This document shows, one piece after another, positions 28,100-41,492 of a stretch of DNA of 41,492 bases (positions are counted from its first letter, which is position 1; each line of letters begins with the position of its first letter). Under the pieces are notes generated by a model. The model was not told the DNA's origin and made no database searches. It saw only the letters and a program-made list of their open reading frames with translations. The position numbers were made by a program, and so were the translations under genes. The DNA comes from Flavobacteriales bacterium (GTDB lineage Bacteria; Bacteroidota; Bacteroidia; Flavobacteriales_F; PHOS-HE28): assembly GCA_020848295.1 (NCBI GenBank), contig JADLAI010000100.1, forward strand, positions 1 to 41,492, written 5' to 3'.

Positions 28100-28117
28100 T
28101 CACCTTAGCTGTACGGC

Positions 28118-28816
28118 ATGAACAAGATCGTGAAGTCCGCCGATGAGGCCCTCGATGGGTTGCGGGATGGTATGACGTTGATGGTGGGCGGCTTCGGCCT
28201 ATGTGGGATCCCCGAAAAGAGCATCGCAGCGCTGGTGCGCAAAGGAGTGAAGGGCCTTACCTGCATCAGCAACAATGCGGGCGTGGACGATTTCGGCCTG
28301 GGCCTGCTGCTCCAGACCCGCCAGATCAAGAAGATGATCAGCAGCTACGTGGGAGAGAACGCGGAGTTCGAACGGCAACTTCTGAGCGGCGAACTACAGG
28401 TGGACCTGGTGCCACAAGGCACATTGGCCGAACGCTGCCGTGCCGGGGGAGCAGGTATCCCCGCCTTCTTCACCCCGGCAGGTTATGGCACCGAGGTCGC
28501 CGAAGGCAAAGAGACCCGCGAGTTCAACGGCAAGATGTACGTACTGGAGGAATGGCTGCGTGCCGACTTCGCATTGGTGAAGGCCTGGAAGGGCGATCGT
28601 TTCGGCAACCTGGTGTACAAACGCACCGCCCGCAACTTCAACCCCATGATGGCCATGGCCGGCAAGATCACCGTGGCCGAAGTGGAGCAACTGGTGGACC
28701 CGAGCGAACTCGATCCCGACGAGATCCACACCCCGGGCATCTTCGTGAACCGGATCTTCCAAGGCACCGATTACGAGAAGCGCATTGAACAACGAACCAC
28801 GCGCAAACGCAACTGA
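28118..28816 (+). CDS. scoA: 3-oxoacid CoA-transferase subunit A
   Basis: The 232-residue alpha subunit of a family I CoA-transferase moves CoA from succinyl-CoA (or acetyl-CoA) to acetoacetate or related 3-oxoacids. The N-terminal glycine motif [12 protein letters not shown] binds Co[16 protein letters not shown] is diagnostic for the SCOT alpha subunit, and [16 protein letters not shown] follows. Subunit B begins 2 nt downstream. It would serve ketone-body or leucine/butanoate degradation. No thiolase or HMG-CoA lyase gene is nearby. Confidence 0.92.
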
Positions 28817-28818
28817 CC

Positions 28819-29475
28819 ATGGCGCTAACGAAGGAACAGATGGCGCAGCGGATCGCGCGCGAATTGAAGGACGGCTACTATGTGAACCTGGGCATCGGTA
28901 TTCCTACGCTGGTGGCGAACTACGTGCCCAAGGGGATGAACGTGGTGTTCCAGAGCGAGAACGGGATCCTGGGCATGGGACCTTTCCCGTACGAGGGAGA
29001 GGAGGATGCCGACCTGATCAATGCGGGCAAGCAGACCGTGACCCTGCTGCCCGGTAGCAGCATCTTCGACAGCAGCACCAGCTTCGCCATGATCCGTGGG
29101 CAGCACGTGCAGCTCACGGTGCTCGGTGCCATGGAGGTGACCGATACCGGTGACATCGCCAATTGGAAGATCCCGGGCAAGATGGTGAAGGGCATGGGTG
29201 GTGCCATGGACCTGGTGGCCAGTGCCGAGAACATCATCGTGGCCATGATGCATGCGAACAAGGCCGGCGAGAGCAAATTGTTGAAGCATTGCACCTTGCC
29301 GCTCACCGGCGTGCGTTGCGTGAAGAAGGTGGTGACCGACCTCGGTGCCTTCGACATCACCCCGGAAGGGTTCCGGCTCTTGGAGCGTGCACCGGGCGTG
29401 ACCGTGGAGGAGATCAAAGCCAGGACGGAAGGAAGGTTGGTGGTGGGGGGGGAGGTCCCGGAAATGGTGGTGTGA
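28819..29475 (+). CDS. scoB: 3-oxoacid CoA-transferase subunit B
   Basis: The 218-residue beta subunit supplies the catalytic glutamate, Glu47 in QSENGILGMGP, which forms the glutamyl-CoA thioester intermediate. The N-terminal NLGIGIPTLVANYV and the FDITPEGFRLLERAPGVTVEE tail match the family. A run of eight G at 29445-29452 lies near the 3' end but the frame is intact. It is translationally adjacent to scoA (2-nt gap). Confidence 0.93.
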   Translation: MALTKEQMAQRIARELKDGYYVNLGIGIPTLVANYVPKGMNVVFQSENGILGMGPFPYEGEEDADLINAGKQTVTLLPGSSIFDSSTSFAMIRGQHVQLTVLGAMEVTDTGDIANWKIPGKMVKGMGGAMDLVASAENIIVAMMHANKAGESKLLKHCTLPLTGVRCVKKVVTDLGAFDITPEGFRLLERAPGVTVEEIKARTEGRLVVGGEVPEMVV

Positions 29476-29594
29476 TCGATCCGGGGTCCGCAGGATGCTG
29501 CTGAGCCGGACCTCACGACCAGCCCACGGTGGCGGGTAGCGATGATGACCCGCGCTTGCGGACCATGCCGCTCCTCATGAACAGGGGCGCCGGT

Positions 29595-29602
29595 TACATT
29601 TG
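29595..29602 (+). promoter_or_regulatory. Probable -7 element of the first glycosyltransferase operon
   Basis: TACATTTG is a perfect TAnnTTTG match in the 169-nt gap after scoB. The ATG at 29645 is 42 nt downstream, and this element excludes the TTG/ATG codons at 29600-29605 as starts. A 6-bp inverted repeat GGTCCG/CGGACC (29485-29512) lies upstream but has no T tract. Confidence 0.55.
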
Positions 29603-29644
29603 ATGCCCTTGAACGGGGCGGGGCTTCGGGCCCCACGTACCACC

Positions 29645-31279
29645 ATGGGAATTCGCAACCTCACCCAGCGGCTCGCCCGCATCGATCACCGTTGGTGGTT
29701 CCTGGCGGGCTTCGTGCTGATGTGCAGCGCGTATGAGTATGGACGGGTGCTGCATTTACGCCCCCAACCGCACCACATCATGCGGCAGTGCGATTGCCTC
29801 GGGCCCACCTACAACTACTTCTACGGCGACCCGAACATCCTGCATCCGTGGATGTGCAACCTGCATGCGGATCATGACACGAGCGGGGAGAGCGCTGGCG
29901 AGTTCCCCGGGATCTACTGGATCATGGGGATGCTGTGGCGGGTGATCGGGCAGAGCGAGTTCGCCTACCGCCTCTTCGGTCTGCTCCTGCACGCGCTGGG
30001 ATCATGGGCGCTCTATCGAACGTCGACGCGCATTCTGGGGTCCGGATTCTGGGGGGCCTGGCTGTCCCTGCTCTTCTTCACCTCGCCGGTGGTGGCCTAT
30101 TTCGCGGTCTCCTTCTTGCCGGATGTGCCGGCCTTCGACCTCGCGATACTGGGCTGGTGGTGTTTCGTGACCTACCACGACCGCAAGCGGAAACGATGGC
30201 TAATAGGCATGTTCCTGTTGATGGCCTTGGGTACGCTGCTCAAGGTCACCGCCGGGATGAGCGTGCTCGCCCTGTTGGGTGTGCTGGTCGTGGAATCGGT
30301 GGTACCGGATCGGCTCTTGCCGAAGTGGCGCGCGTTCCCCCAACGGGGCTGGGCCTGGCTCGGTTTCCTGCTCCTGTTCGCCATGGTCTTCTCCTGGTAC
30401 ATGTACGCGGCGTGGTATAATGGACTGCACGGAGCGGGTTATACTCCGAACAGTTTTTGGCCGCTGTGGGAGACCACCCCGGAAGTGTATGCCTTCGCGG
30501 TGTGGTTCGGGCTCAACATCCTGGTGTACGAGCTTTTCGCGGCACCGATGTGGATCCTGCTCTTCGCTGGTATGGCCGTCTTCTTCGTTGCCATCCGCCG
30601 CTTCCCCCTCCAAGTGGTCCTGGTGAACATCGCGCTGCTCTGTGGGGTGATCCTGTTCACCATCGGCTGGTTCAAGGCGCTGGAGAACCACGACTACTAC
30701 TTCATCAATCCGCAGATCATGGCGGTCGTGATGATCCTCACCGCCTTGTGGTATGTGGGGCGCCGCCATCCCCAGGTACTGCGGAGCCCATGGGCCAAAG
30801 GGGTTGCCATGGCTCTGTTGACCTACAGTACGGTGTACACCATGTTCGATATGCGCCTGCGCACCCGCGGCGGAACACCGCTTTCGGATGAGCAACGCCC
30901 ACCCTTGCTCAACGAAGCCCAGATCGACCATTGGAGGGAGACCCAGTTCTGGAGCTTCCGGGGCCTGATGACGATCACCCCCTACGCCCGTTCGCTCGGC
31001 ATCACACCCGATGACCGTGTGATCACGGTGCGTGACCGGTCCTGGCAGAATGCTTTGTACGTGATCGGTCAGCGGGGCTGGAATGATGGTAACCTGGGCC
31101 TGGAGGACACCGCCTCCTTCGAGCACTGCCTGCGGAATGGGGCGAGGTATCTGTTCGTGAACGAGTCGGATTGGCTCCAACGGCCCTACATGCAGCGGTA
31201 TCTTCAGCATCCCATCGGTGAATACGAAGGGGTCCACATCTTCGACCTTCGCCCCCTTAGCCCACTACCGACACCGTGA
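29645..31279 (+). CDS. GT39/PMT-like polytopic membrane glycosyltransferase
   Basis: The 544-residue protein has about 11 membrane segments and the GT-C layout. The first periplasmic loop begins [20 protein letters not shown], with the acidic residue position expected for the catalytic Asp of Dol-P-Man/ArnT-type enzymes, and a second acidic site is [10 protein letters not shown] soluble C-terminal part follows from about residue 420. Such enzymes take a sugar from a polyprenyl-phosphate donor. The next gene encodes a DPM1-like donor synthase and overlaps by 4 nt, which supports this. Acceptor unknown: glycolipid, glycan or secreted protein. Confidence 0.78.
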
Positions 31280-31980
31280 AGCTCTCCATCATCATCCCCG
31301 CTTACAACGAGGAGCGCACGATCCACCTGATCCTGGACAAGGTGCAGGCGGTGGTGTTGCGTGAAGGGATCAACAAAGAGGTCATCATCGTGAACGACGG
31401 TTCGAAGGACGGTACCGTGCAGGCGGTTGAGCGGTACATCGCTGAGAATCCCTCCGTTCCGATCAAGTTCTTCCAACAACCGAAGAACATGGGTAAGGGT
31501 GCCGCGATCCATCGGGGGATCAAGGAGGCCACCGGCGAATACCTGATCGTGCAGGATGCCGACCTGGAGTATGATCCCCGCGAGTACAACGACCTGTTGC
31601 GACCGGTGTGCGAAGGCTTCGCCGATGTGGTCTTCGGCTCGCGTTTCATGGGCCACCACCCGCACCGCATCCTCTTCTTCTGGCATAGCATCGGCAACAA
31701 GTTCCTCACCCATCTATCCAACGCGTTCAACAATTTGAACCTGACGGACATGGAGACCTGCTATAAGTTGATGCGGAGCGACATCGCCAAGGGCTTGGAC
31801 CTTCGCGAACGTCGTTTCGGCTTCGAGCCGGAGGTGACGGCGAAGCTTGCTCGTGTGAAAGGCGTTCGGATCTATGAGGTCGGCATCAGCTATTACGGCC
31901 GTACCTACGCCGAGGGTAAGAAGATCGGGTGGAAGGACGGCTTCCGGGCCATCTGGTGCATCATCAAATACGGGTTCTGA
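31276..31980 (+). CDS. GT2 glycosyltransferase, DPM1-like polyprenyl-phosphate sugar synthase
   Basis: The 234-residue cytoplasmic enzyme has the DPM1 pattern: [14 protein letters not shown] at the start, [10 protein letters not shown] (about 38-47), and the metal-binding DADLEYDP with Asp94 and Asp96. GSRF precedes an acceptor-site region, and ETCYKLMR and [13 protein letters not shown] follow. There is no membrane helix, as in soluble DPM1-type enzymes. It would charge a polyprenyl phosphate with mannose or glucose from a nucleotide sugar. Start GTG overlaps the previous stop as GTGA. Confidence 0.85.
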
Positions 31981-31982
31981 AT

Positions 31983-33791
31983 ATGGAGAAGGACGCACCG
32001 CGAGCGGATGACCGTCCGGACATGCGGATAGCCTTGGTGGTGGCCACCGGTGTGCTTGGTGTGCTTGGCGTGTTCGCGTGGCGCTATTACCTGGAGCGCA
32101 CGGCCTGTTTCGATAGTGCTTTCTTCTCCTGGCTCATGCTCGAAGCCGGACATCCGATCAGCGTGCTGGGCCGATATGGCTCATGGATCGCGCAGGTCCT
32201 GCCGGTGTTGATGATGAAGATCGGAGCTTCACTGGAGGTGGTACTGCGCAGCTACTCCCTCGCCTTCATCCTGGTGCACGCCCTTGTGCTCTATCTCGTT
32301 GCCTTCCGGCTGAAAGAGCGGCGTGCGGTAGTGGCTCTGGCGCTCACGCTCACGACGGGCTTTCATTACATGTTCTACTACGGCATCAGCGAGTTGTACC
32401 AGGGCCTGTCCCTCACCGTGCTGTTGTGGGTGCTCATCCGCAGGGCGTGGTCGGCCGCATCGCCGACCGGATGGGTGGTCGCGGCCGTGGCGCTGAACGT
32501 GGTGATCTCATTCTTCCATCAGTTGCTCGTGCTCCCGCTCGTTTTCATCCTGGTGTTCGAGGCATTGGAGGAACAACGTTGGCGTAAGCGAGGCACTTGG
32601 TTGCTGGGTATCGTGCTGGTGGCTTGGTATGTGGCGCGCATCACCCTGATGGCCAAGTCGACCTACGAGGAATCGCGCATGCCACACGCATCCGATCTGG
32701 TCACCTACCTCTTCCGTCTTGGTGAACTGAACAGTACGGCGTACCTGCTCATGGTCTGGACCAAGTTCAAGGCCCTCTTGTTGGTGATCGCGGTGGGCAC
32801 GTGCTTGTTGGTCTGGCAGCGATCCTGGCTGCGGCTCGCCTGGACCTTGGTCTTCAGCACGGCCTTCCTCACCCTCATCCTCATCGTGGATCGCGATGGC
32901 ATGGCCCCGGTGATCTACGAGAATTACTATCCGGTGATCGGCATGGTCTGGGCCATCGCCTTCGCCAGCGAGTTGGATCGGATCTCCGGACTTCTGCGCA
33001 AGATGATGCACGGGGTCTTTGTCGTGGCTTGTGCGCTCGGTCTTCTTCAGATCCATCGTGCGCATTATCGCCTTACGGAGCGGGTGAACTATTTACAACG
33101 CATCACGGACTATCAAGCGGAGCTTGGGATCCGAAAGGGATTGGTGCGGTTCGACAACTTCCCTTGGTCGTACACACTGGTGCATTGGGCAGTAGGGATG
33201 GAAAGCGCGTTGGTTTCGGCGGTCAAGGCGCCGGACGAGGCTTCGACCATCTTCATATCGGACGATTTGGCTCGGGTTGCAGAACTGGCTCCCCTACCAC
33301 ATCAATTCCTGGGACCGTCGTGGGCGCCGAATTGGTTCCCAATGGAGGTGCTGGACACCGATTACTTCCGATTCCCCGAGGATGTCGGTTACACCTGGAT
33401 ATGCGGAACGGATCCTGTTCATGCCATGGACCGTTTGCGCATCCTTCCCCCGGAGGAGCCTTATCGATTGGTCCCTGACCGCTTCACCGTTGTTCCGATC
33501 CGGTTGGAGAATACAGGACAGGAGCGGTTCGCTTCCTGCGCAGCGAACGGAAAGCCGTTGCAGTTCTTGTATCAGCTGTTGCGTGAGGATGGCACCATCT
33601 ATCAGGAGAGCGCACATTGCAGCTCCATGGAGGTGGACATAGCACCGGGAACAGCCTATATGCAAGGTCTCGTGTTGGAGCGACCGGTGGACAACGGCCG
33701 GTATACGGTGCGTTCTTGGCTGTCTGTGGAAGGCAGACCGTTAGGCGAAGCGTTCCAATTCGAGGTCGTGGCGGATAGCTGGCCTTTCTGA
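31983..33791 (+). CDS. Polytopic membrane protein, GT-C-like, with a C-terminal beta-rich domain
   Basis: The 602-residue product has about ten membrane segments in the first 400 residues. The C-terminal ~110 residues are soluble and beta-rich: VVPIRLENTGQERF, then QFLYQLLREDGTI, then NGRYTVRSWLSVEG, a pattern I associate with carbohydrate-linked accessory domains. An acidic pair (CFDSAFFSW) in the first loop could be catalytic. The start is ATG at 31983, two nucleotides after the GT2 stop. Its position in an operon with a GT39-like and a DPM1-like enzyme suggests a glycosyltransferase or flippase role, not proven by sequence. Confidence 0.65.
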   Translation: MEKDAPRADDRPDMRIALVVATGVLGVLGVFAWRYYLERTACFDSAFFSWLMLEAGHPISVLGRYGSWIAQVLPVLMMKIGASLEVVLRSYSLAFILVHALVLYLVAFRLKERRAVVALALTLTTGFHYMFYYGISELYQGLSLTVLLWVLIRRAWSAASPTGWVVAAVALNVVISFFHQLLVLPLVFILVFEALEEQRWRKRGTWLLGIVLVAWYVARITLMAKSTYEESRMPHASDLVTYLFRLGELNSTAYLLMVWTKFKALLLVIAVGTCLLVWQRSWLRLAWTLVFSTAFLTLILIVDRDGMAPVIYENYYPVIGMVWAIAFASELDRISGLLRKMMHGVFVVACALGLLQIHRAHYRLTERVNYLQRITDYQAELGIRKGLVRFDNFPWSYTLVHWAVGMESALVSAVKAPDEASTIFISDDLARVAELAPLPHQFLGPSWAPNWFPMEVLDTDYFRFPEDVGYTWICGTDPVHAMDRLRILPPEEPYRLVPDRFTVVPIRLENTGQERFASCAANGKPLQFLYQLLREDGTIYQESAHCSSMEVDIAPGTAYMQGLVLERPVDNGRYTVRSWLSVEGRPLGEAFQFEVVADSWPF

Positions 33792-33817
33792 AGTGGGATA
33801 GTGGGTGACGCCGGGGC

Positions 33818-33825
33818 TACTTTTG
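33818..33825 (+). promoter_or_regulatory. Probable -7 element of the second GT2 gene
   Basis: TACTTTTG is a perfect TAnnTTTG match in the 65-nt gap after the membrane protein gene. Downstream, AGGAGG (33840-33845) and GGAGG (33851-33855) precede the ATG at 33857, a rare strong Shine-Dalgarno-like sequence in this window. Confidence 0.55.
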
Positions 33826-33856
33826 GCGGCCCACTGTACAGGAGGTGGTCGGAGGC

Positions 33857-34612
33857 ATGTCGCGGAACGTTCACTTGGTCATCCCTTGTTACAACGAGGA
33901 GCGGCGGCTGCCCTTCGCGGAGATCGACGCACTGCTGCAACGGGAACCGGGGCTGTACCTGACCTTTTCGGACGACGGTAGCACCGATGGCACGGCGGCG
34001 CGTTGCACGGAATTGGCGCGGAACCATCCGGAGCGGGTACTGGTGCATGTGGCACCGAAGAACGGAGGAAAGGGTGAAGCGGTGCGCCGAGGGATGTTGG
34101 CCGCGTTGGAGCGCTGGCCCAACGCCAACTACATCGGGTACTTCGATGCCGACCTCGCTACCCCATTGACCGAGGCCTTTCACCTGTTGGCCAACGGCGC
34201 TTCGGCCCGCCCCACGATCATCATGGGAAGCCGGATACAACTCCTGGGTAGCACGGACATCCGGCGCTCGATCGCCCGACACTACATGGGCCGGGTGTTC
34301 GCCACGATGGTGAGCATGCAGCTGGATGTGCCGGTGTACGACACCCAGTGTGGGGCCAAGTTGATCCGTGCGGACCGGGTGCAGGAACTGTTCACCGAGC
34401 CCTTCCTTACCCGTTGGTTGTTCGATGTGGAGCTGCTGTGGCGCTGCATGGCCATCACCGGTCGGGTCCGCCTGGGCGAACAGGTGAAGGAAGTGCCCTT
34501 GACCACCTGGCACGAGGTGCGCGGATCCAAGGTGAAGCTCTCGGATGGGATCAAGGTACCGCTTGCCTTGCTGCGCGTGGCGCGCCACTACCGGGGCCGC
34601 GTGAGGAGCTGA
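33857..34612 (+). CDS. GT2 glycosyltransferase, ALG5-like polyprenyl-phosphate sugar synthase
   Basis: The 251-residue enzyme has VHLVIPCYNEERRLP at the N-terminus, SDDGSTDGT (about 38-46) and the metal-binding GYFDADLATPLTE with Asp97 and Asp99. The DADLATP form resembles ALG5-type dolichyl-phosphate glucosyltransferases more than DPM1. There is no clear membrane segment. It would load a second sugar on a lipid carrier. ATG at 33857 is chosen because of the Shine-Dalgarno-like GGAGG two bases before it; the frame extends to a GTG at 33845. The 3' end overlaps the convergent membrane protein gene by 25 nt. Confidence 0.82.
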   Translation: MSRNVHLVIPCYNEERRLPFAEIDALLQREPGLYLTFSDDGSTDGTAARCTELARNHPERVLVHVAPKNGGKGEAVRRGMLAALERWPNANYIGYFDADLATPLTEAFHLLANGASARPTIIMGSRIQLLGSTDIRRSIARHYMGRVFATMVSMQLDVPVYDTQCGAKLIRADRVQELFTEPFLTRWLFDVELLWRCMAITGRVRLGEQVKEVPLTTWHEVRGSKVKLSDGIKVPLALLRVARHYRGRVRS

Positions 34613-36936
34613 CCGTTGAAGAACACCTTCGTGATGCGGCCGTCGGTGCGTTCGAGCACGTTGAAGGTGTGCGCGTAAGCGGGCCGTACCATCACCTCGT
34701 CGCACCAGATCGTATCGCGATACGACTTGCGGCCTTCCACGAAGATGCGGTATTCATCCGATGCCTTGTTCGCCGTGAACGGTAGTTCCACCAGCGACCA
34801 ATCGCCGTTGATGATCCGTGCGAAGCGCATGTCCCCGCAGTTGATCCAATCCTCCCGCCCGCTATGAGGGTCGCGCTGGGCCACGCACGTGAGCGCGTGG
34901 TTGCGAAGGTGCCCCTTGGTATAGGTCCAGTAGCTGGCCACGTAACGTTCGCCCTCGGTCAGGCTGTTCGCCGGCACGGTGAGCAGCGTGTTCACGTTCC
35001 GTTTCAACCCACTGTATGCGCCTGTTCCTGCATAGGCATGTTCGGCCGGGCGGTCATCGAACGAGTTGTATTGGACGCGCTCACCGGGGCGCGTGGTGAT
35101 CCAACCGTCGCTGAGGCTGTCACCTGCGAGGCGGTCGATCGCTGCGAAGAGTTCCGTGCGCCGGTCCTTGAACAGATCGGCCGCAGTGATCTTCAAGAGC
35201 CGTACATCGCCGTGCGCTGCGACCGGTGTGGCCAGGGACAGGTAGCGGGCCTCGGCCTCATTCGCGGGTGGCATTGTATTGACCAACAGGAACACATCGT
35301 CCGGGGCGAACCGCTGCGCGATCGGACGGGGATACCACGGGGAGTTCAACAAGCCGAGCTGTTCCTTGGTCTCGCTCACACTCGTTCGTGCCAGCGAGTA
35401 GGCGGTCATCGGCAGGCCTTTCCAATAGCTCAGGATCATGGCCAGCTGCATGGTGCGATCGTCGGGCAGGATCAAGAGCTCATCCGAACCAGCGAGGAAA
35501 TTCGGGATCGGGAGGATGGCGCGGTAACGCGTCGCATCGATGCTTTTGATCAAGGACCGCTCCTGCTCGGTGAGCCCTTCGGCACGCAACACATTGCGGT
35601 TGTGGGCGCTCTCCTCGGCCAGGACAACGTGCATGGCACGCGCCTCGTGCAGGTAGGCCAATGGAAGCGCCACGCAGAGCACCGTGGCAGCGCAGCGCCC
35701 ATAGCCCGTGGCCCGCTGGCGCATCCAGTACGCGCCATACAGGGCGGTGAGCCCAAGGGCATAATACGCTGGCCAAGCGAAGCGCCCCGGTGAACGGAAC
35801 TGACCGATCAATGGGAAGGACCAGGGATACGGACCGTGTTTCTCGTTGAACGGGAACCCGAAGGCGAATGCGAGCAAGGGGAGCGCTGCGAGCACCAAGG
35901 CGGTGAGTGCGAAAGGCCAGGCATTCGTACCTGGACCAGGAGTGCGATGGCGCGCCCATGCGATGCCTGCCATCAGGAAAAGAATGAGCACACCGACCAG
36001 GGTCGCGATGCCCAAGTAGGCTGTTGCTTCGAACTCCTGCGGCATGTTCATGGGGAACACCCACCAACTGAGCGAACTGCGATACGCGGATGGTGGTGAC
36101 AGCACCCCGCTCCAGTCGGTCTTGTACTCGAAGAAGCCGAGTGGCCGCACGGTACGCCCAACATGGTGATCGGTCAATGACTGGATCGCAAGGAAGAGGG
36201 CCACGGGTACCACCACCATCGCTGCGGTAAGGGCCAGGCGCATCCATTCTTTCCGCCGGAAGAAGGGGTAGGCCATGAAGAGGAGATAGAAACCCATCCA
36301 GGACGCAGCGATCATGCCCGTATACGGATGCAGGTGGAAACCGACGAAGGTGATCGCGGCCCCGAGCAGTGCCCAGGGCAAGGGTCTTGCGGCGGACAGG
36401 CAGCGGATCGCGAAATAGGCGGGCAGGGTGATGAGCCAGCCGTAGCTGAGGGCGTGGTGGCCCGCGGCGATGCGTGGGGTTTGTGGCGAGAGTGCGGCGA
36501 GGGCGATGGCGCATACGGCCGCGAAGAACCAGCCCGTGCCGAAGTGTCGCAGCAAGAGGTAGAGGGAATAGGCGGTGAGCACCATGCTGAGCAGGGCGGC
36601 CAGGTTGATGATCGCGGCGGCGCGATCTTCGAGGCCGGGAAGCAACAGGGCCAGGAGCTTGGTGGTATTGGCCAATGCAGGCTGTGCATCCGGGTAACCG
36701 ATCTGCTCACCAAAAGGATGGTTCATGCCCTCGAACTGCATGAGTGAGGAGTCGTGCGCCACGTGGTAGGCGAAGGCGTAGTAATTCTTCAGCCCATCAC
36801 CGGTGCCGTTGAACAGGGTGCTGTTGGGCGCACGCAGGATCGCACCATATTGCAGCCAGAGCATCGCGAAAGCCATCAGGAGCATGGCCGTGGTACGGCC
36901 CCAAGGCTTCCGTAAGAGCTGCTCCAGGCGCTTCAT
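34588..36936 (-). CDS. Large polytopic membrane protein, possible GT-C glycosyltransferase
   Basis: The 782-residue product has about 12 membrane segments in its first 440 residues and a soluble C-terminal half of about 340 residues. The first loop, LFNGTGDGLKNYYAFAYH, has the Asp-containing motif often seen at the catalytic site of bacterial GT-C proteins, and NHPFGEQIGYPDAQP follows. The C-terminal half contains a beta-rich domain (roughly 620-782). I do not recognise a named family. It overlaps the upstream gene by ATGA (36933-36936) and converges on the ALG5-like gene with a 25-nt coding overlap. Confidence 0.7.
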   Translation of the reverse strand: MKRLEQLLRKPWGRTTAMLLMAFAMLWLQYGAILRAPNSTLFNGTGDGLKNYYAFAYHVAHDSSLMQFEGMNHPFGEQIGYPDAQPALANTTKLLALLLPGLEDRAAAIINLAALLSMVLTAYSLYLLLRHFGTGWFFAAVCAIALAALSPQTPRIAAGHHALSYGWLITLPAYFAIRCLSAARPLPWALLGAAITFVGFHLHPYTGMIAASWMGFYLLFMAYPFFRRKEWMRLALTAAMVVVPVALFLAIQSLTDHHVGRTVRPLGFFEYKTDWSGVLSPPSAYRSSLSWWVFPMNMPQEFEATAYLGIATLVGVLILFLMAGIAWARHRTPGPGTNAWPFALTALVLAALPLLAFAFGFPFNEKHGPYPWSFPLIGQFRSPGRFAWPAYYALGLTALYGAYWMRQRATGYGRCAATVLCVALPLAYLHEARAMHVVLAEESAHNRNVLRAEGLTEQERSLIKSIDATRYRAILPIPNFLAGSDELLILPDDRTMQLAMILSYWKGLPMTAYSLARTSVSETKEQLGLLNSPWYPRPIAQRFAPDDVFLLVNTMPPANEAEARYLSLATPVAAHGDVRLLKITAADLFKDRRTELFAAIDRLAGDSLSDGWITTRPGERVQYNSFDDRPAEHAYAGTGAYSGLKRNVNTLLTVPANSLTEGERYVASYWTYTKGHLRNHALTCVAQRDPHSGREDWINCGDMRFARIINGDWSLVELPFTANKASDEYRIFVEGRKSYRDTIWCDEVMVRPAYAHTFNVLERTDGRITKVFFNGQLLTRPR

Positions 36937-38231
36937 TGGTAGAAGGCATCACCCCAGAAGGTGATGAGCGAGTCCCAGGTCCACGTGGGGCCATCCATGG
37001 GCGAGAAGGCCAGGTGGCTCATGCGGATGTTGAGGAAAATGAGGAAGACCGCGGGTACCAGGAGCAACCATTTGAAGCGCCGGCTCCAGTTGATCAAGGC
37101 ATCCACGCAGGCGGCCAGCGGCAGGACGAGGAAAGCGTAATGCTCCACGAAACCGCGATGGCCGAAGGAGCCGCCGAGCCACCAGTTCCACCAGCTTGCA
37201 TAGAGGTACCAGGCTACGCTCCACACCAGCAGGATCGCCCGCCAGTCGGCCATTGGGGGCTTACCCGAACAGGCTCCGCGCAAGAGCATCACCATGGCAC
37301 CGATCATCAACGGATGGTACAACAACCAGCCGCCCTGGTGGCTGAAGAGGATATCCCACAGGTGTGGCGACCACCAGAAGAAGCCTTCGCCTTTGGCACC
37401 GTACGTGAAGACGAGGTAGGAGCCGGTCTGCGCCTTCCAATAAAGTAGCTGCGGAAGGATCAACACCAGGGCCACACCAAAACCCGCCAGCGTCCATGCC
37501 GGGAACCGAGTGAACCAATGCAACCGATCCTTCAGCGCATCACGCCAGGGGATTCCATAGAACAACGGTAGGAGCAGGGCGATGCCGTTGAGCGGCCGCA
37601 CAAGAATGATCAGGGTGCCACATACGAACAACCCGAACAAACTTCGCCCATTGGGGCGGACGACCATGGTCAGGGTGAGGTGAAGGAGCCAGGCGAAGAG
37701 GAAGAAGCTGTACACATGGGACATGCCGCCGTCGTGTACGGTATAGTAATAGAGGTTCGTGGCGAAGATCAACAGCCCGCAGGTGACCCAGCCGACGGTC
37801 GCGGACCAATAGCGCCGCAGGGTGTGAAAACTGAGGGCGATGGCGACCGCCCCATAGAACCCCGTGGCCATCAAACGCGTGAATACGAACGGGAGCTCGT
37901 AACCCGTGGGGGTGATCCCGGTGATCGTGCAATAGAGCAGTGCGAGCAGGAAGAAGGGCGCTTGCAGCAAGGCGACCCCGAAGGTGAACAGGTTCAGTCC
38001 TTTTCCGCTCTCGAGGTAGTGGACGTAACGGAACGAATCGGGGTCGTGCTGCAGGATGATGCCCGGTAACCATTGGTAATAGCCCAAGGGGTCGCTCGTG
38101 CTGGTCAACACAAAGCCCATCCGGTGGGCATTCGTGTTCCATGCCAGCCAGGTGAGCAGGGTGGTCAGGAGTGCGATGCCGAGGATGTACGACCAATTCG
38201 CTCCTTGAGGGAGCCTGGAGGAAGCATTCAT
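36933..38231 (-). CDS. Polytopic GT-C-like membrane protein (intact paralogue of the split gene)
   Basis: The 432-residue protein has about 11 membrane segments. The first loop has STSDPLGYYQWLP, the counterpart of GWDSFGYYLYLP in the frameshifted gene at 38288-40161. A later stretch matches the paralogue in order: YWK, then GSYLV, GEG, PH, LFS, GW, Y-PLM; after it ASWWNWWLGGSFGHR matches SSWTCWWYADSYGAR. This intact gene is a template for judging the split one. The ATG at 38231 is preferred; the frame extends to 38273. The catalytic role is inferred from the fold and context only. Confidence 0.72.
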   Translation of the reverse strand: MNASSRLPQGANWSYILGIALLTTLLTWLAWNTNAHRMGFVLTSTSDPLGYYQWLPGIILQHDPDSFRYVHYLESGKGLNLFTFGVALLQAPFFLLALLYCTITGITPTGYELPFVFTRLMATGFYGAVAIALSFHTLRRYWSATVGWVTCGLLIFATNLYYYTVHDGGMSHVYSFFLFAWLLHLTLTMVVRPNGRSLFGLFVCGTLIILVRPLNGIALLLPLFYGIPWRDALKDRLHWFTRFPAWTLAGFGVALVLILPQLLYWKAQTGSYLVFTYGAKGEGFFWWSPHLWDILFSHQGGWLLYHPLMIGAMVMLLRGACSGKPPMADWRAILLVWSVAWYLYASWWNWWLGGSFGHRGFVEHYAFLVLPLAACVDALINWSRRFKWLLLVPAVFLIFLNIRMSHLAFSPMDGPTWTWDSLITFWGDAFYQ

Positions 38232-38238
38232 CTGGACG

Positions 38239-38246
38239 CAAAGATG
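38239..38246 (-). promoter_or_regulatory. Possible -7 element upstream of the GT-C pair
   Basis: The minus strand reads CATCTTTG only 7 nt before the ATG at 38231. If real, the transcript would be nearly leaderless or the true start would lie further downstream. Confidence 0.3.
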
Positions 38247-38287
38247 ATCCGAACAAAGGCATCGGACCCCCAATGGTCACCGACCGG

Positions 38288-39211
38288 TCAAGGACCGGCC
38301 TGGATGCCTGTGGCCTCGTGGACCAGGATCAACGGTCCGATCACCTCCATGGGCTTTCCTTGTGTTGACCAAGCATAGGCCGCGAATTGATCCGAGCGGC
38401 TTCGCACTTCGGGGGTCAAGTACCACTGACGGATCAGCGTCCATTCGCTGTGGTGCGCTCCCAGGTCCAACACGTCATTCGTCTGGTAGGCGTAAGAGCC
38501 ATCATGGTCGAAGGTGTTCACAAGCACATTGCCCGAGGTCTCGCTGCTCGTGTGTACGAGCCAACGCAGTTCTAACCAGGCGTGATCCTGAGCAGTGAGG
38601 TCCGAGAACCTTGCTTTGAAGGCCGCGCTGAACGGCCTCTCGGGATCGATATGCTCGGAGCGGCAAGGTGCAGTGATACTGTCCTGCATTGGGCCAGGTG
38701 TGTTCAGTAAGGAGGAGCAAGTAAAGTCCCCCAGGACCTTGATGACCGCGTATTCCCCTGTCGGCTCAATGGGTGGCTTAGGGGCTGAACGATCCACCAG
38801 TAGAAGGCGATCGGTTCCAACCGGCGGTGCGGTCTTTGCGAAAGAAGCGAAATAGGCCGCTGCGGTCATTCGGGACGCGTGGATCAGCCCTTTATTGAAC
38901 TGCCAGTATTGGAACAGGTTGAGAACAACGCATAACACCAGGATCGCGGCGCCGGCATACCGATACCCCAAGGACCAAGTGCGCATCCGGTTGATCAAGA
39001 AGGCCAGCGGGATCGCCATCACCGGATAGGACCCCACCATGGCCCTGGCCCCGTAACTATCCGCATACCACCAACACGTCCAGCTCGATACGACATACAG
39101 ATCCACCAGGAAGAATACGGTGATCGGGACAGTGGGGGCGGGGGGGGGGGGCTCCAAAGCAGCAGGATGGCCCCGGTCGCAATAAGCATCAGGGGTGTAT
39201 ACACGTACCAC
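38288..39211 (-). CDS. C-terminal part of a frameshifted GT-C-like membrane protein
   Basis: The 307-residue open frame starts at an ATG at 39211, but its first ~25 residues are the wrong-frame reading of the upstream gene. True homology begins after the proline run, at APTVPITVFFLVDLY (about 39139 downward). SSWTCWWYADSYGARAMVGSYPVMAIPLAFLI corresponds to the same region of the intact paralogue (motif spans about residues 41-72). Two further membrane helices and a soluble tail of about 190 residues follow. Together with 39019-40161 it would form one protein of about 624 residues if the C run had 13 or 10 bases. Whether it is ever translated alone is unknown. Confidence 0.65.
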   Translation of the reverse strand: MVRVYTPDAYCDRGHPAALEPPPPAPTVPITVFFLVDLYVVSSWTCWWYADSYGARAMVGSYPVMAIPLAFLINRMRTWSLGYRYAGAAILVLCVVLNLFQYWQFNKGLIHASRMTAAAYFASFAKTAPPVGTDRLLLVDRSAPKPPIEPTGEYAVIKVLGDFTCSSLLNTPGPMQDSITAPCRSEHIDPERPFSAAFKARFSDLTAQDHAWLELRWLVHTSSETSGNVLVNTFDHDGSYAYQTNDVLDLGAHHSEWTLIRQWYLTPEVRSRSDQFAAYAWSTQGKPMEVIGPLILVHEATGIQAGP

Positions 39212-40161
39212 CCTTTCCGGAAGCTGAACAGGAAGTCCACGGTATGTGGAGCAAGGAGGTCAAGCCCCTCTCCGGGATTCGCGTACGAGTCGATGAGCCA
39301 GGATCCGCAGGCCAGTTTCCAATAGGTGAATTGGATCATCCCGATCAAGACCAGTACCGCAGCCATCACGACCCAGGTGCGCCTTTGTTGCCAGAGCTGG
39401 GCCAACCAGCGTGTGCTTGCCGATCCGGGCCAGAACAAGGGGATCAGAATGCATACGATCTCAGTCGGCCGGATCAACGCCCCGATCCCGATGACCACTG
39501 CAAGAAGGATCGCATCGCGTAATGCATTGGTTCGCCGCCAGCGGATGGTACACCACAAGACCGCAGCGTATACGGTGAACAGGGGGAGGTGCGGCATGGT
39601 TTGTCCGGTAAGGCTTTGGTCCAGGAGATTGGTGCCAAGGACCACAAGACCCACGGTGAATAACGCCGCCCGCGCATCATAAGTTCGGTGCAGTACATCG
39701 TACAGGAGAAGTAGGCCAAGCAGGAAGTACAACATCACACCGGCCGATAGGGCAAGCTGATATGGAAGGGAGAAGCCATCCTGTGCGTACCCCAACCATC
39801 CGGCCGTAAAGTGTCCGACCCCGAACCAAGGCAACCAGATCACAGCCAGGCCGATCGGATAGCGGATCACAAGCGGGCCATTCGTCGGCTTGGAGAACTG
39901 ATAGAGGGTGGTGGAGACCTGGTACTTGGCATTTACGTCCTCCACCCAGCTCATGTTACGCACGAGTGGGTCGTTATGAATGAAGGTGGCCGGTAGATAG
40001 AGGTAATAGCCGAACGAGTCCCAGCCAAGTTGAAAGGAGGGACGGTTGATGAATGCGTAGAACGAGAGAATAGCCCAAAGACCGATGACCAGGAATCGAG
40101 GCCGGGAGTACAGGACTGCTGAACTCATTTGGGAAGGAACGCTCAGTGGATGACGAACCAT
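39019..40161 (-). CDS. N-terminal part of a frameshifted GT-C-like membrane protein
   Basis: The 380-residue frame is homologous to the intact paralogue up to Ser337 at 39151-39153: GWDSFGYYLYLP in the first loop (catalytic-type Asp48), GQTMPHLPLFTVYA, ALIRPTEIV, and YWKLACGSWLIDSYANPGEGL to GWYVYTPLM. After the poly-C tract the frame reads 6 prolines and then unrelated sequence to a stop at 39019, so the last ~37 residues are not genuine. About eight membrane segments are present. ATG at 40161 or 40128 could start it. Seven nucleotides separate it from the upstream gene. Confidence 0.72.
   Translation of the reverse strand: MVRHPLSVPSQMSSAVLYSRPRFLVIGLWAILSFYAFINRPSFQLGWDSFGYYLYLPATFIHNDPLVRNMSWVEDVNAKYQVSTTLYQFSKPTNGPLVIRYPIGLAVIWLPWFGVGHFTAGWLGYAQDGFSLPYQLALSAGVMLYFLLGLLLLYDVLHRTYDARAALFTVGLVVLGTNLLDQSLTGQTMPHLPLFTVYAAVLWCTIRWRRTNALRDAILLAVVIGIGALIRPTEIVCILIPLFWPGSASTRWLAQLWQQRRTWVVMAAVLVLIGMIQFTYWKLACGSWLIDSYANPGEGLDLLAPHTVDFLFSFRKGWYVYTPLMLIATGAILLLWSPPPPPPLSRSPYSSWWICMSYRAGRVGGMRIVTGPGPWWGPIR
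39140..39151. repeat. 12-nt homopolymeric G tract (C on the coding strand) at the frameshift
   Basis: Twelve consecutive G at 39140-39151 are preceded by GGGGGC (39134-39139). On the coding (minus) strand this is poly-C inside a proline stretch. With 12 C the upstream frame continues PPPPPP-LSRSP and leaves homology; with 13 or 10 it reads PPPP-APTVP or PPP-APTVP and joins the downstream frame. Such tracts change length by slipped-strand mispairing and are also prone to sequencing error. Confidence 0.85.
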
Positions 40162-40168
40162 TGGTGGA

Positions 40169-40573
40169 TCACTCGATCAACACCCCACGGGCCCCCATCA
40201 AGGGGATGGTGGTGCAGTGGTGCTCTTCGATACTCCCGGCCAGGAAGATGTACTTGCGGTCGTAAAGCCGCTGGCCCACGTAATAACTGAGCCAGTATTG
40301 GTTGCTGAGCACGAGCACCTCGTCCACGATCCGCTCGATCCGCGCCCAGCTTCGGGGACCCAGGTGCTCGAGGTGGTGCCGTAGTTCACTGGTGCGGCGG
40401 CTCTCCCCTTCGATCTCGCCGTAGCCGCGAGAACTCACCAGCACGTTCTCCAGCGCGTGTGCGTTCTGATTGATCAGGTAAACGAACCAGGCATCCTCGG
40501 CATCCTCGTCCTTTTCGCGCACCACGGCCATGGCCACGCCCTCTACTTTGGGTGGGTGAATGTCCTTCCGCAT
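40169..40573 (-). CDS. Conserved hypothetical protein of Bacteroidota
   Basis: The 134-residue protein starts at the ATG at 40573 (MRKDIHPPKVEGVAMAVVRE). The pattern AWFVYLINQNAHALENVLVSS, RHHLEHLGPRSWARIE, and the final MGARGVLIE matches a small Bacteroidota family. I recall its members sometimes being labelled, apparently wrongly, as phenylalanyl-tRNA synthetase subunits; it shares nothing with pheS here. No membrane helix or catalytic motif is evident. The open frame reaches 40651 over the end of the upstream hydrolase, which argues for the shorter start. Function unknown. Confidence 0.75.
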   Translation of the reverse strand: MRKDIHPPKVEGVAMAVVREKDEDAEDAWFVYLINQNAHALENVLVSSRGYGEIEGESRRTSELRHHLEHLGPRSWARIERIVDEVLVLSNQYWLSYYVGQRLYDRKYIFLAGSIEEHHCTTIPLMGARGVLIE

Positions 40574-40589
40574 GGGGTCAAGGTCGGTG

Positions 40590-41492
40590 CTACACGGGTT
40601 GGGCCGTACGCGAGGCCAGTTCACGTGCGATGCCGATCCATTCGAACACATCCTTGGGGTGGCCGGCGCCGTTCACCTCCTCGCGCTTCATCCCGGTGCG
40701 CACCATCACCAGGTCCAGGTCGGGCATCACCACCACGTATTCCCCGTGGAAGCCGCGGCAATACCAGATCGGGTTGCCATCCAGTTCGGCCAGCCACCAG
40801 AAATACCCATAGCGTTGGTTCGGTGATCCGCGGTCGTCGAGTGCGGCCGGTGTGATGCTTGCCTTCCAGTATTCCTCGTCGATGATCCGTGTGCCCTTCC
40901 ATTTCCCGCTGTCCAGGTACAGTTGCCCGATGCGGCCGAAGTCGCGCGCGGTGGCGTAGAGGCAGCAGAAGGCCTTGAAGTCGCCATCCTCGGTGTCCTT
41001 GCCCCAATAGGCATCGTGCTCACAACCAAGCGGTCCCCACACTTTCTCGCGCACCAGTTCGTCCAACGGTCTGCCATAGGCGGCCTCCAGCACTTCGGCC
41101 ATGATCTGCGTGCTGCCGCTGATGTAGTCGAAGGACTTCCCCGGTTCGTCGCGGCAGGGTTGGTTCAAGCTGATCCCCCGTACATCGCTGCCGTAGTAGC
41201 CTTTCGCATTGTCACTGAAGGGATCGGCACCGCTTTCGCTCCAGTCCAGGCCGGTGCTCATGGTGAGCAGGTGATACAGGTTGATCTTCGTATAACAACC
41301 CTCCTTGTACAGCGGAATGAAGTCGCCTACCGGCTGGAAGACATCCTTGATCACGCCCTCTTTCATGGCGATGCCAGTGAGCAGGCTGATGTAGCTCTTC
41401 GCCACGCTGAAGCTGTTGCTCACGCTATCGGCGTCCCAGCCGTTCCAGTACTGTTCGAAGATGAGGCTGTCGTGCTGGAACAACGCGAATCC
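40590..41492 (-). CDS. Beta-lactamase-family serine hydrolase (5' end cut by window edge)
   Basis: The frame is open to the window edge at 41492, so the N-terminus is missing. The visible 300 residues are a class C beta-lactamase/esterase-like domain: the SxxK motif SVAKS (about 26-30) with the nucleophile Ser and Lys, YHLLTMSTGLDW downstream, DYISGSTQIMAEVL as the Y-x-S/N motif, and GFHGEYVVV as the HxG motif near the end. Family members are D-aminopeptidases, esterases or penicillin-binding proteins rather than necessarily resistance enzymes. The substrate is unknown. The next gene begins 16 nt after its stop. Confidence 0.85.
   Translation of the reverse strand, partial: GFALFQHDSLIFEQYWNGWDADSVSNSFSVAKSYISLLTGIAMKEGVIKDVFQPVGDFIPLYKEGCYTKINLYHLLTMSTGLDWSESGADPFSDNAKGYYGSDVRGISLNQPCRDEPGKSFDYISGSTQIMAEVLEAAYGRPLDELVREKVWGPLGCEHDAYWGKDTEDGDFKAFCCLYATARDFGRIGQLYLDSGKWKGTRIIDEEYWKASITPAALDDRGSPNQRYGYFWWLAELDGNPIWYCRGFHGEYVVVMPDLDLVMVRTGMKREEVNGAGHPKDVFEWIGIARELASRTAQPV

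Follow-up and report, generated by a model that had tools for sequence, protein, structure and literature searches.

The window, by which is meant the whole stretch of 41,492 nucleotides that was analysed, belongs to a draft genome of 2.59 Mb (254 contigs, 66% complete, 60% GC), and the features considered here are listed in Table 1. The most prominent of these is a single gene for a membrane glycosyltransferase of the GT-C type, which is encoded in two reading frames that meet at a run of twelve C residues. The first-frame product ends in SPPPPPPLSRSP... and is then closed by a stop codon, while the overlapping second open reading frame (38288-39211, minus strand) encodes the remainder of the gene and carries on as ...PPPPAPTVPITVFFLVDLYVVSSWTCWWYADSYGARA...; on the plus strand the tract reads as G12 and is preceded by GTGGGGGC.

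Table 1. Features of the split gene and its neighbourhood (positions in the window).
Feature	Position	Strand	Remarks
GT-C-type membrane glycosyltransferase gene, frame broken inside	38288-40161	-	~624 codons as a single protein
C12 tract (G12 on +), site of the frame break	39140-39151	-	sequence, alignment
Second short run, C5, one G away from C12	39134-39138	-	sequence
Upstream frame, ORF of 380 aa; last ~43 residues are an out-of-frame tail	39019-40161	-
Downstream frame: W-rich motif VSSWTCWWYADSYGARA, remaining TM helices, C-terminal beta-sandwich domain	38288-39139	-
Intact paralogous GT-C-like gene, 432 aa	36933-38231	-	syntenic homologue in L139, 46% identity
Further polytopic membrane protein of the same variable block	34588-36936	-
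Conserved flank protein	40593-41492	-	88% identical in G041:C54, 72% in G048:C371

The first-pass annotation had proposed that one gene is split exactly at this tract, and the comparison with relatives, in which the homologues were found by querying with the first half and both halves were then compared with every open frame, bears this out. The two halves are collinear within a single uninterrupted open reading frame in about 35 homologues, mostly of about 600-680 amino acids, and the best of these are found in G041 (L101; 56% and 45% identity to the first and second half, respectively) and G048 (L102; 52% and 47%). A codon-usage model places the switch of coding frame exactly at C12 (scores of +25.4 and +23.9, in different frames), and the GC content by codon position agrees between the two halves. 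The alignment to the intact paralogue that had been called for was also carried out, and matches both the first half (27% over 286 amino acids, E=1e-19) and the second (30% over 64 amino acids, E=8e-8). The frame requires a change of one or two bases to be restored, in agreement with the earlier statement that a run of 13 or 10 C would yield one protein of about 624 residues. In a nucleotide comparison that covered 45 genomes of the genus, one per species, the best match is 68% over 635 bases, and only short pieces exceed 68%.

The surroundings of the gene, as judged from the comparison with its relatives, appear to form a hypervariable, fast-diverging GT-C block set between conserved genes. 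When the region 28109-41492 is compared with its counterpart in a close relative (L139, G041:C54), three flanking genes are 88-92% identical, the two GT-C genes are only 56% and 46% identical, and the gene content differs, the polytopic membrane protein of the block having no counterpart in either of the syntenic regions L139 and L140. The flank protein, which reads as a putative beta-lactamase-family protein (serine hydrolase), has homologues in G041:C54 and G048:C371 that adjoin the homologous GT-C gene. The block probably serves surface glycans, and its variability would be as expected of surface-glycan loci.

The assignment to the GT-C superfamily follows from a profile match and a predicted multi-pass fold. 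The split gene matches the Pfam family PMT_2 (E=1.3e-7, 32.4 bits against a cut-off of 26.1), and an AlphaFold model of its closest homologue L101, computed from an alignment of 29 homologues headed by L101, shows a GT-C fold with a mean pLDDT of 87.8. The best Foldseek matches of this model, at moderate query TM-scores of about 0.3-0.4, are the arabinosyltransferases EmbA/B/C and AftA, ALG12, ArnT and oligosaccharyltransferases. The predicted fold is shared with GT-C enzymes (the Emb and AftA arabinosyltransferases, ArnT, PMT and ALG12), although the sequence identity is only 12-17%. The model also resembles the Emb proteins in having a C-terminal beta-sandwich, which gives weaker structural matches that include carbohydrate-binding modules. 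The residues W47, D48, G51, Y52 and D64 are conserved in at least 90% of the homologues and are present in the window gene; they fall in what we take to be the first periplasmic loop of GT-C enzymes. Searches of PHROGs and NCBIfam with the gene gave no match, a sequence-profile search of the PDB gave no relative of the GT-C-type protein, and no RNA families were found near the split gene. Since the frame of the C12 allele leaves out the W-rich motif along with the last helices and C-terminal domain, the product of the assembled frame is presumably inactive.

Apart from the frame break, the gene seems to bear no sign of decay. At the columns conserved in at least 90% of the 31 full-length homologues it retains 49 of 52 residues before the break and 20 of 21 after it, and across its roughly 624 codons no stop or indel was detected other than the break at C12. 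Because both sides are conserved and there is no further lesion, the break is likely to be recent, merely apparent or reversible. The short loop in which the tract lies is a different matter. It corresponds to residues 344-351 of L101, between predicted helices 330-344 and 350-365, which are taken to be transmembrane, and it contains one to four lysine or arginine residues in all 31 full-length homologues and none in the window gene, where the codons of the C run occupy the place of this conserved basic loop.

The evaluation of the tract itself requires that its length be separated from what the base composition of the genome would produce and that its position be compared with related genes. 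About 2.2 runs of at least 12 C or G are expected in 2.59 Mb from base composition and three are present, and C12 is accordingly no longer or more frequent than composition explains. It is the sole C or G run of more than eight bases in the window, and what is unusual about it is its location inside a conserved reading frame together with its coincidence with the frame break. Its repeat unit, lying in a coding sequence and not divisible by three, has the property expected of a contingency locus, in that the gain or loss of one unit shifts the frame. The repeat of a contingency locus is also expected to be shared by related genes at the corresponding site (the GeneTack scheme asks for at least five frameshifted genes in one cluster; PMC3711429), and here none of the 31 full-length homologues, the syntenic gene of a close relative among them, carries a run at the C12 position, which rules out a tract conserved in orthologues. 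The tract is apparently private to this lineage, and its lineage-specificity and its replacement of a conserved basic loop speak against an old, selected switch. The chance-level length, the absence of the run from the homologues and the loss of the basic residues point instead to an incidental hypermutable tract rather than a conserved contingency locus. The first-pass annotation had offered slippage and indel error as the two readings of a split at a homopolymer, which holds as far as it goes; its suggestion of a classical contingency locus is not supported for the split gene, and the observation that it had itself named as telling against a switch, namely homologues that lack the run, is the one made among the 31.

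Whether the tract could be an artefact may be judged from the behaviour of other long runs. Seven coding runs of 9-10 bases elsewhere in this genome, none reaching 12, read as in frame (L065, L078, L085, L092, L094 and L097 as called by codon scores, and L099 by its start codon), so that at 9-10 bases a general homopolymer error in the assembly is not evident. Runs of 12-13 that lie within genes of other species of the genus are likewise in frame (L125, L143, L174). Elsewhere in the genus many clusters of runs are found at the ends of contigs or beside N gaps (L110, L164, L177, L178) and resemble read-end artefacts, and the long G/C runs that adjoin N gaps in other drafts (L110, L164, L112, L135) are probably read-end artefacts at scaffold joins. 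A poly-G read-end artefact is less likely for C12, unlike for those runs, because the contig continues beyond it in sequence homologous to relatives. The tract is therefore probably real, and its exact length may differ from the assembled one.

The explanation preferred here, which is given about an even chance of being correct, is that an incidental hypermutable C12 tract makes the GT-C gene phase-variable in effect. The tract would have arisen incidentally and recently within the loop between the two predicted transmembrane helices. At the assembled length the gene is off, with a stop about 43 residues past the break and everything lost from the W-rich motif through the last helices to the C-terminal domain. 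Twelve identical bases should slip often through strand mispairing during replication, so the cells of a population would probably differ in tract length, and such a mixture of lengths would probably render the gene phase-variable in practice. The sequences show one gene, a frame break at the tract, intact homologues and conservation of both halves; we infer that the tract is real, slips and switches reversibly.

The undamaged state of the gene, with nearly all conserved residues kept on either side of the break, would also be expected if the gene were intact in the cells, with an in-frame run whose length the draft misstates by one or two bases. A consensus error of this kind is somewhat unlikely. 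In its favour, the genome is a fragmented draft, the in-frame runs of 12-13 in other genomes indicate that long genic runs are normally held in frame, and a loop without lysine or arginine would fit a locally unreliable consensus. The in-frame coding runs of 9-10 in the same genome argue against it, however, as does a contig that is clean and continuous on both sides of the tract. The missing basic residues, together with relatives that lack the tract, can also be read as marks of plain inactivation, that is, of a real frameshift which has been fixed in the lineage and has left a young pseudogene among exchangeable glycosyltransferase genes. Such genes do decay, as is indicated by a GT-C-like gene of another family (L248, G027:C87) which is split over two frames with no homopolymer at the break, but in the present gene there is no second lesion across about 624 codons and the out-of-frame half keeps its codon usage and its conserved positions, and plain inactivation is considered unlikely. 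Four further candidates for split GT-C relatives (L249-L252) are partial matches near contig ends with no tract at the frame switch.

It is also conceivable that the C12 allele still gives a certain amount of full-length protein, through programmed frameshifting or through transcriptional slippage in the run. Long homopolymers can cause slippage of RNA polymerase or the ribosome, a behaviour described mostly for A/T runs (PMC3711429), and in Vibrio wbeL a short poly-A tract has been reported to be bypassed in part (PMC3441752). Recoding is nevertheless very improbable here, since the window tract consists of G/C and programmed frameshifting is expected to use a conserved site (PMC3711429), of which the homologues have none.

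Among known systems, poly-G/C contingency loci in surface and glycan genes produce translational phase variation in Neisseria and Campylobacter, while DNA inversion is the familiar switch in the Bacteroidota. The window gene shares with the former loci a G/C homopolymer in a surface-related coding sequence, its frame being off as assembled, but their tracts are switchable in length, whereas the window tract is absent from orthologues and known from one assembled length. A further likeness is to the genes wbeL and manA of Vibrio cholerae O1, where the homopolymer also lies inside a surface-polysaccharide gene and poly-A slippage truncates the protein (PMC3441752). Among the strains examined, the wbeL and manA tracts are conserved (two strains have a manA variant) and variants have been isolated, against a single assembly for the window; irreversible hypermutation is also raised for these tracts, as an alternative, by the authors (PMC3441752). 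If reads were to show mixed lengths, C12 would be one more slippage-switchable glycan gene, in this case in the Bacteroidota.

A survey of runs of at least 12 in the 45 genomes of the genus presents a different picture, in that many of them lie directly behind the start codon of secreted-protein genes, in particular those of a family that contains SprB repeats (Pfam PF13573, E=6e-19). The family was gathered by protein similarity, irrespective of repeats, and the 5' end was readable in 49 of its members. Of these, 32 carry a repeat close to the start codon or within the codons for the signal peptide, comprising G runs in 15, C runs in 13, (AC)10, and the heptamers GCACGCC (in two members) and GCACACG (in one); the corresponding frequency in control genes of the same genus is one G/C run of at least eight in 124 genes (Fisher p of about 6e-18 for G/C runs). 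Read from the closest start codon ahead of the repeat, the mature protein is in frame in 8 cases and out of frame in 20, a ratio of about one third to two thirds, as random slippage predicts. Of two paralogues in one genome, L176 carries G13 and is in frame, and L179 carries G12 and is out of frame. Within-genome paralogues also differ in tract length in L170, L171 and L222 (C16, C12 and C10), and members in other species include L192 and L202 (GCACGCC five times in each), L209 (GCACACG four times) and L193 (AC ten times).

The genome of the window has such genes of its own. C14 at 2204-2217 of G000:C76 (L002:1501-1514), G10 in G000:C98 (L232) and G8 in G000:C124 (L231) are located at the start codon or signal peptide, and in all three the likely start does not share the frame of the mature protein; in a fourth gene (G000:C146, L233) a G9 run lies upstream of the start. 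The survey takes the nearest ATG before the run; in L232 a more distant ATG is the better start, and the call therefore changes from in frame to out of frame. It should be read alongside a codon-model survey of the runs of at least 12 in the genus, which, since many of these runs lie at gene starts, called most of them non-coding or uncertain. Several of the repeat loci are found in assemblies of only four to nine contigs (G003, G054, G059), and for the AC and heptamer repeats we know of no read artefact of that kind.

The 5' repeats of the SprB family thus recur at the same place in related genes, as the window tract does not, and the genus looks likely, from these sequence patterns, to carry real contingency loci in this family. 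The window gene is not itself a member, being a GT-C gene with its tract about 338 codons from the start. The two cases have in common the G/C tracts, and in the SprB-repeat genes of the same genome and genus the frames are consistent with slippage; they differ in that the SprB-family tracts recur, lie close to the start codon or in the signal peptide and include several unit types, whereas the window tract is single and mid-gene. The contingency-locus reading is consequently weak for the GT-C gene and reasonable for the genus, and the earlier idea that the organism uses homopolymer switches finds support elsewhere in its genome and genus, in the SprB-repeat secreted proteins.

In a second secreted family (P0006, AQDNLWVNG...LLDF) the 5' end was readable in six members, and five of these have C tracts; the tracts in L238, L239, L241, L242 and L247 are of about 10-15 bases in signal-peptide codons, and that of L246 is interrupted. 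The wider pattern carries more weight than the single tract: within one secreted family several kinds of slippage repeat occupy the same place, with frames as random slippage predicts, and no description of this multi-kind pattern was found in the literature searched. It may tentatively be suggested, as a rather unlikely extension, that this apparently uncultured genus has repeat-driven on/off genes in the SprB and second families, that the GT-C gene is a recent recruit, and that both kinds of gene switch randomly; secreted proteins and surface glycans would in that event both vary at random. In the genome of the window, a G10 run that lies in frame within the signal-peptide codons of a TPR protein (L099:1229-1276, G000:C201; MKRIVHILLCALLGGGMTFGQ) is a possible further switch.
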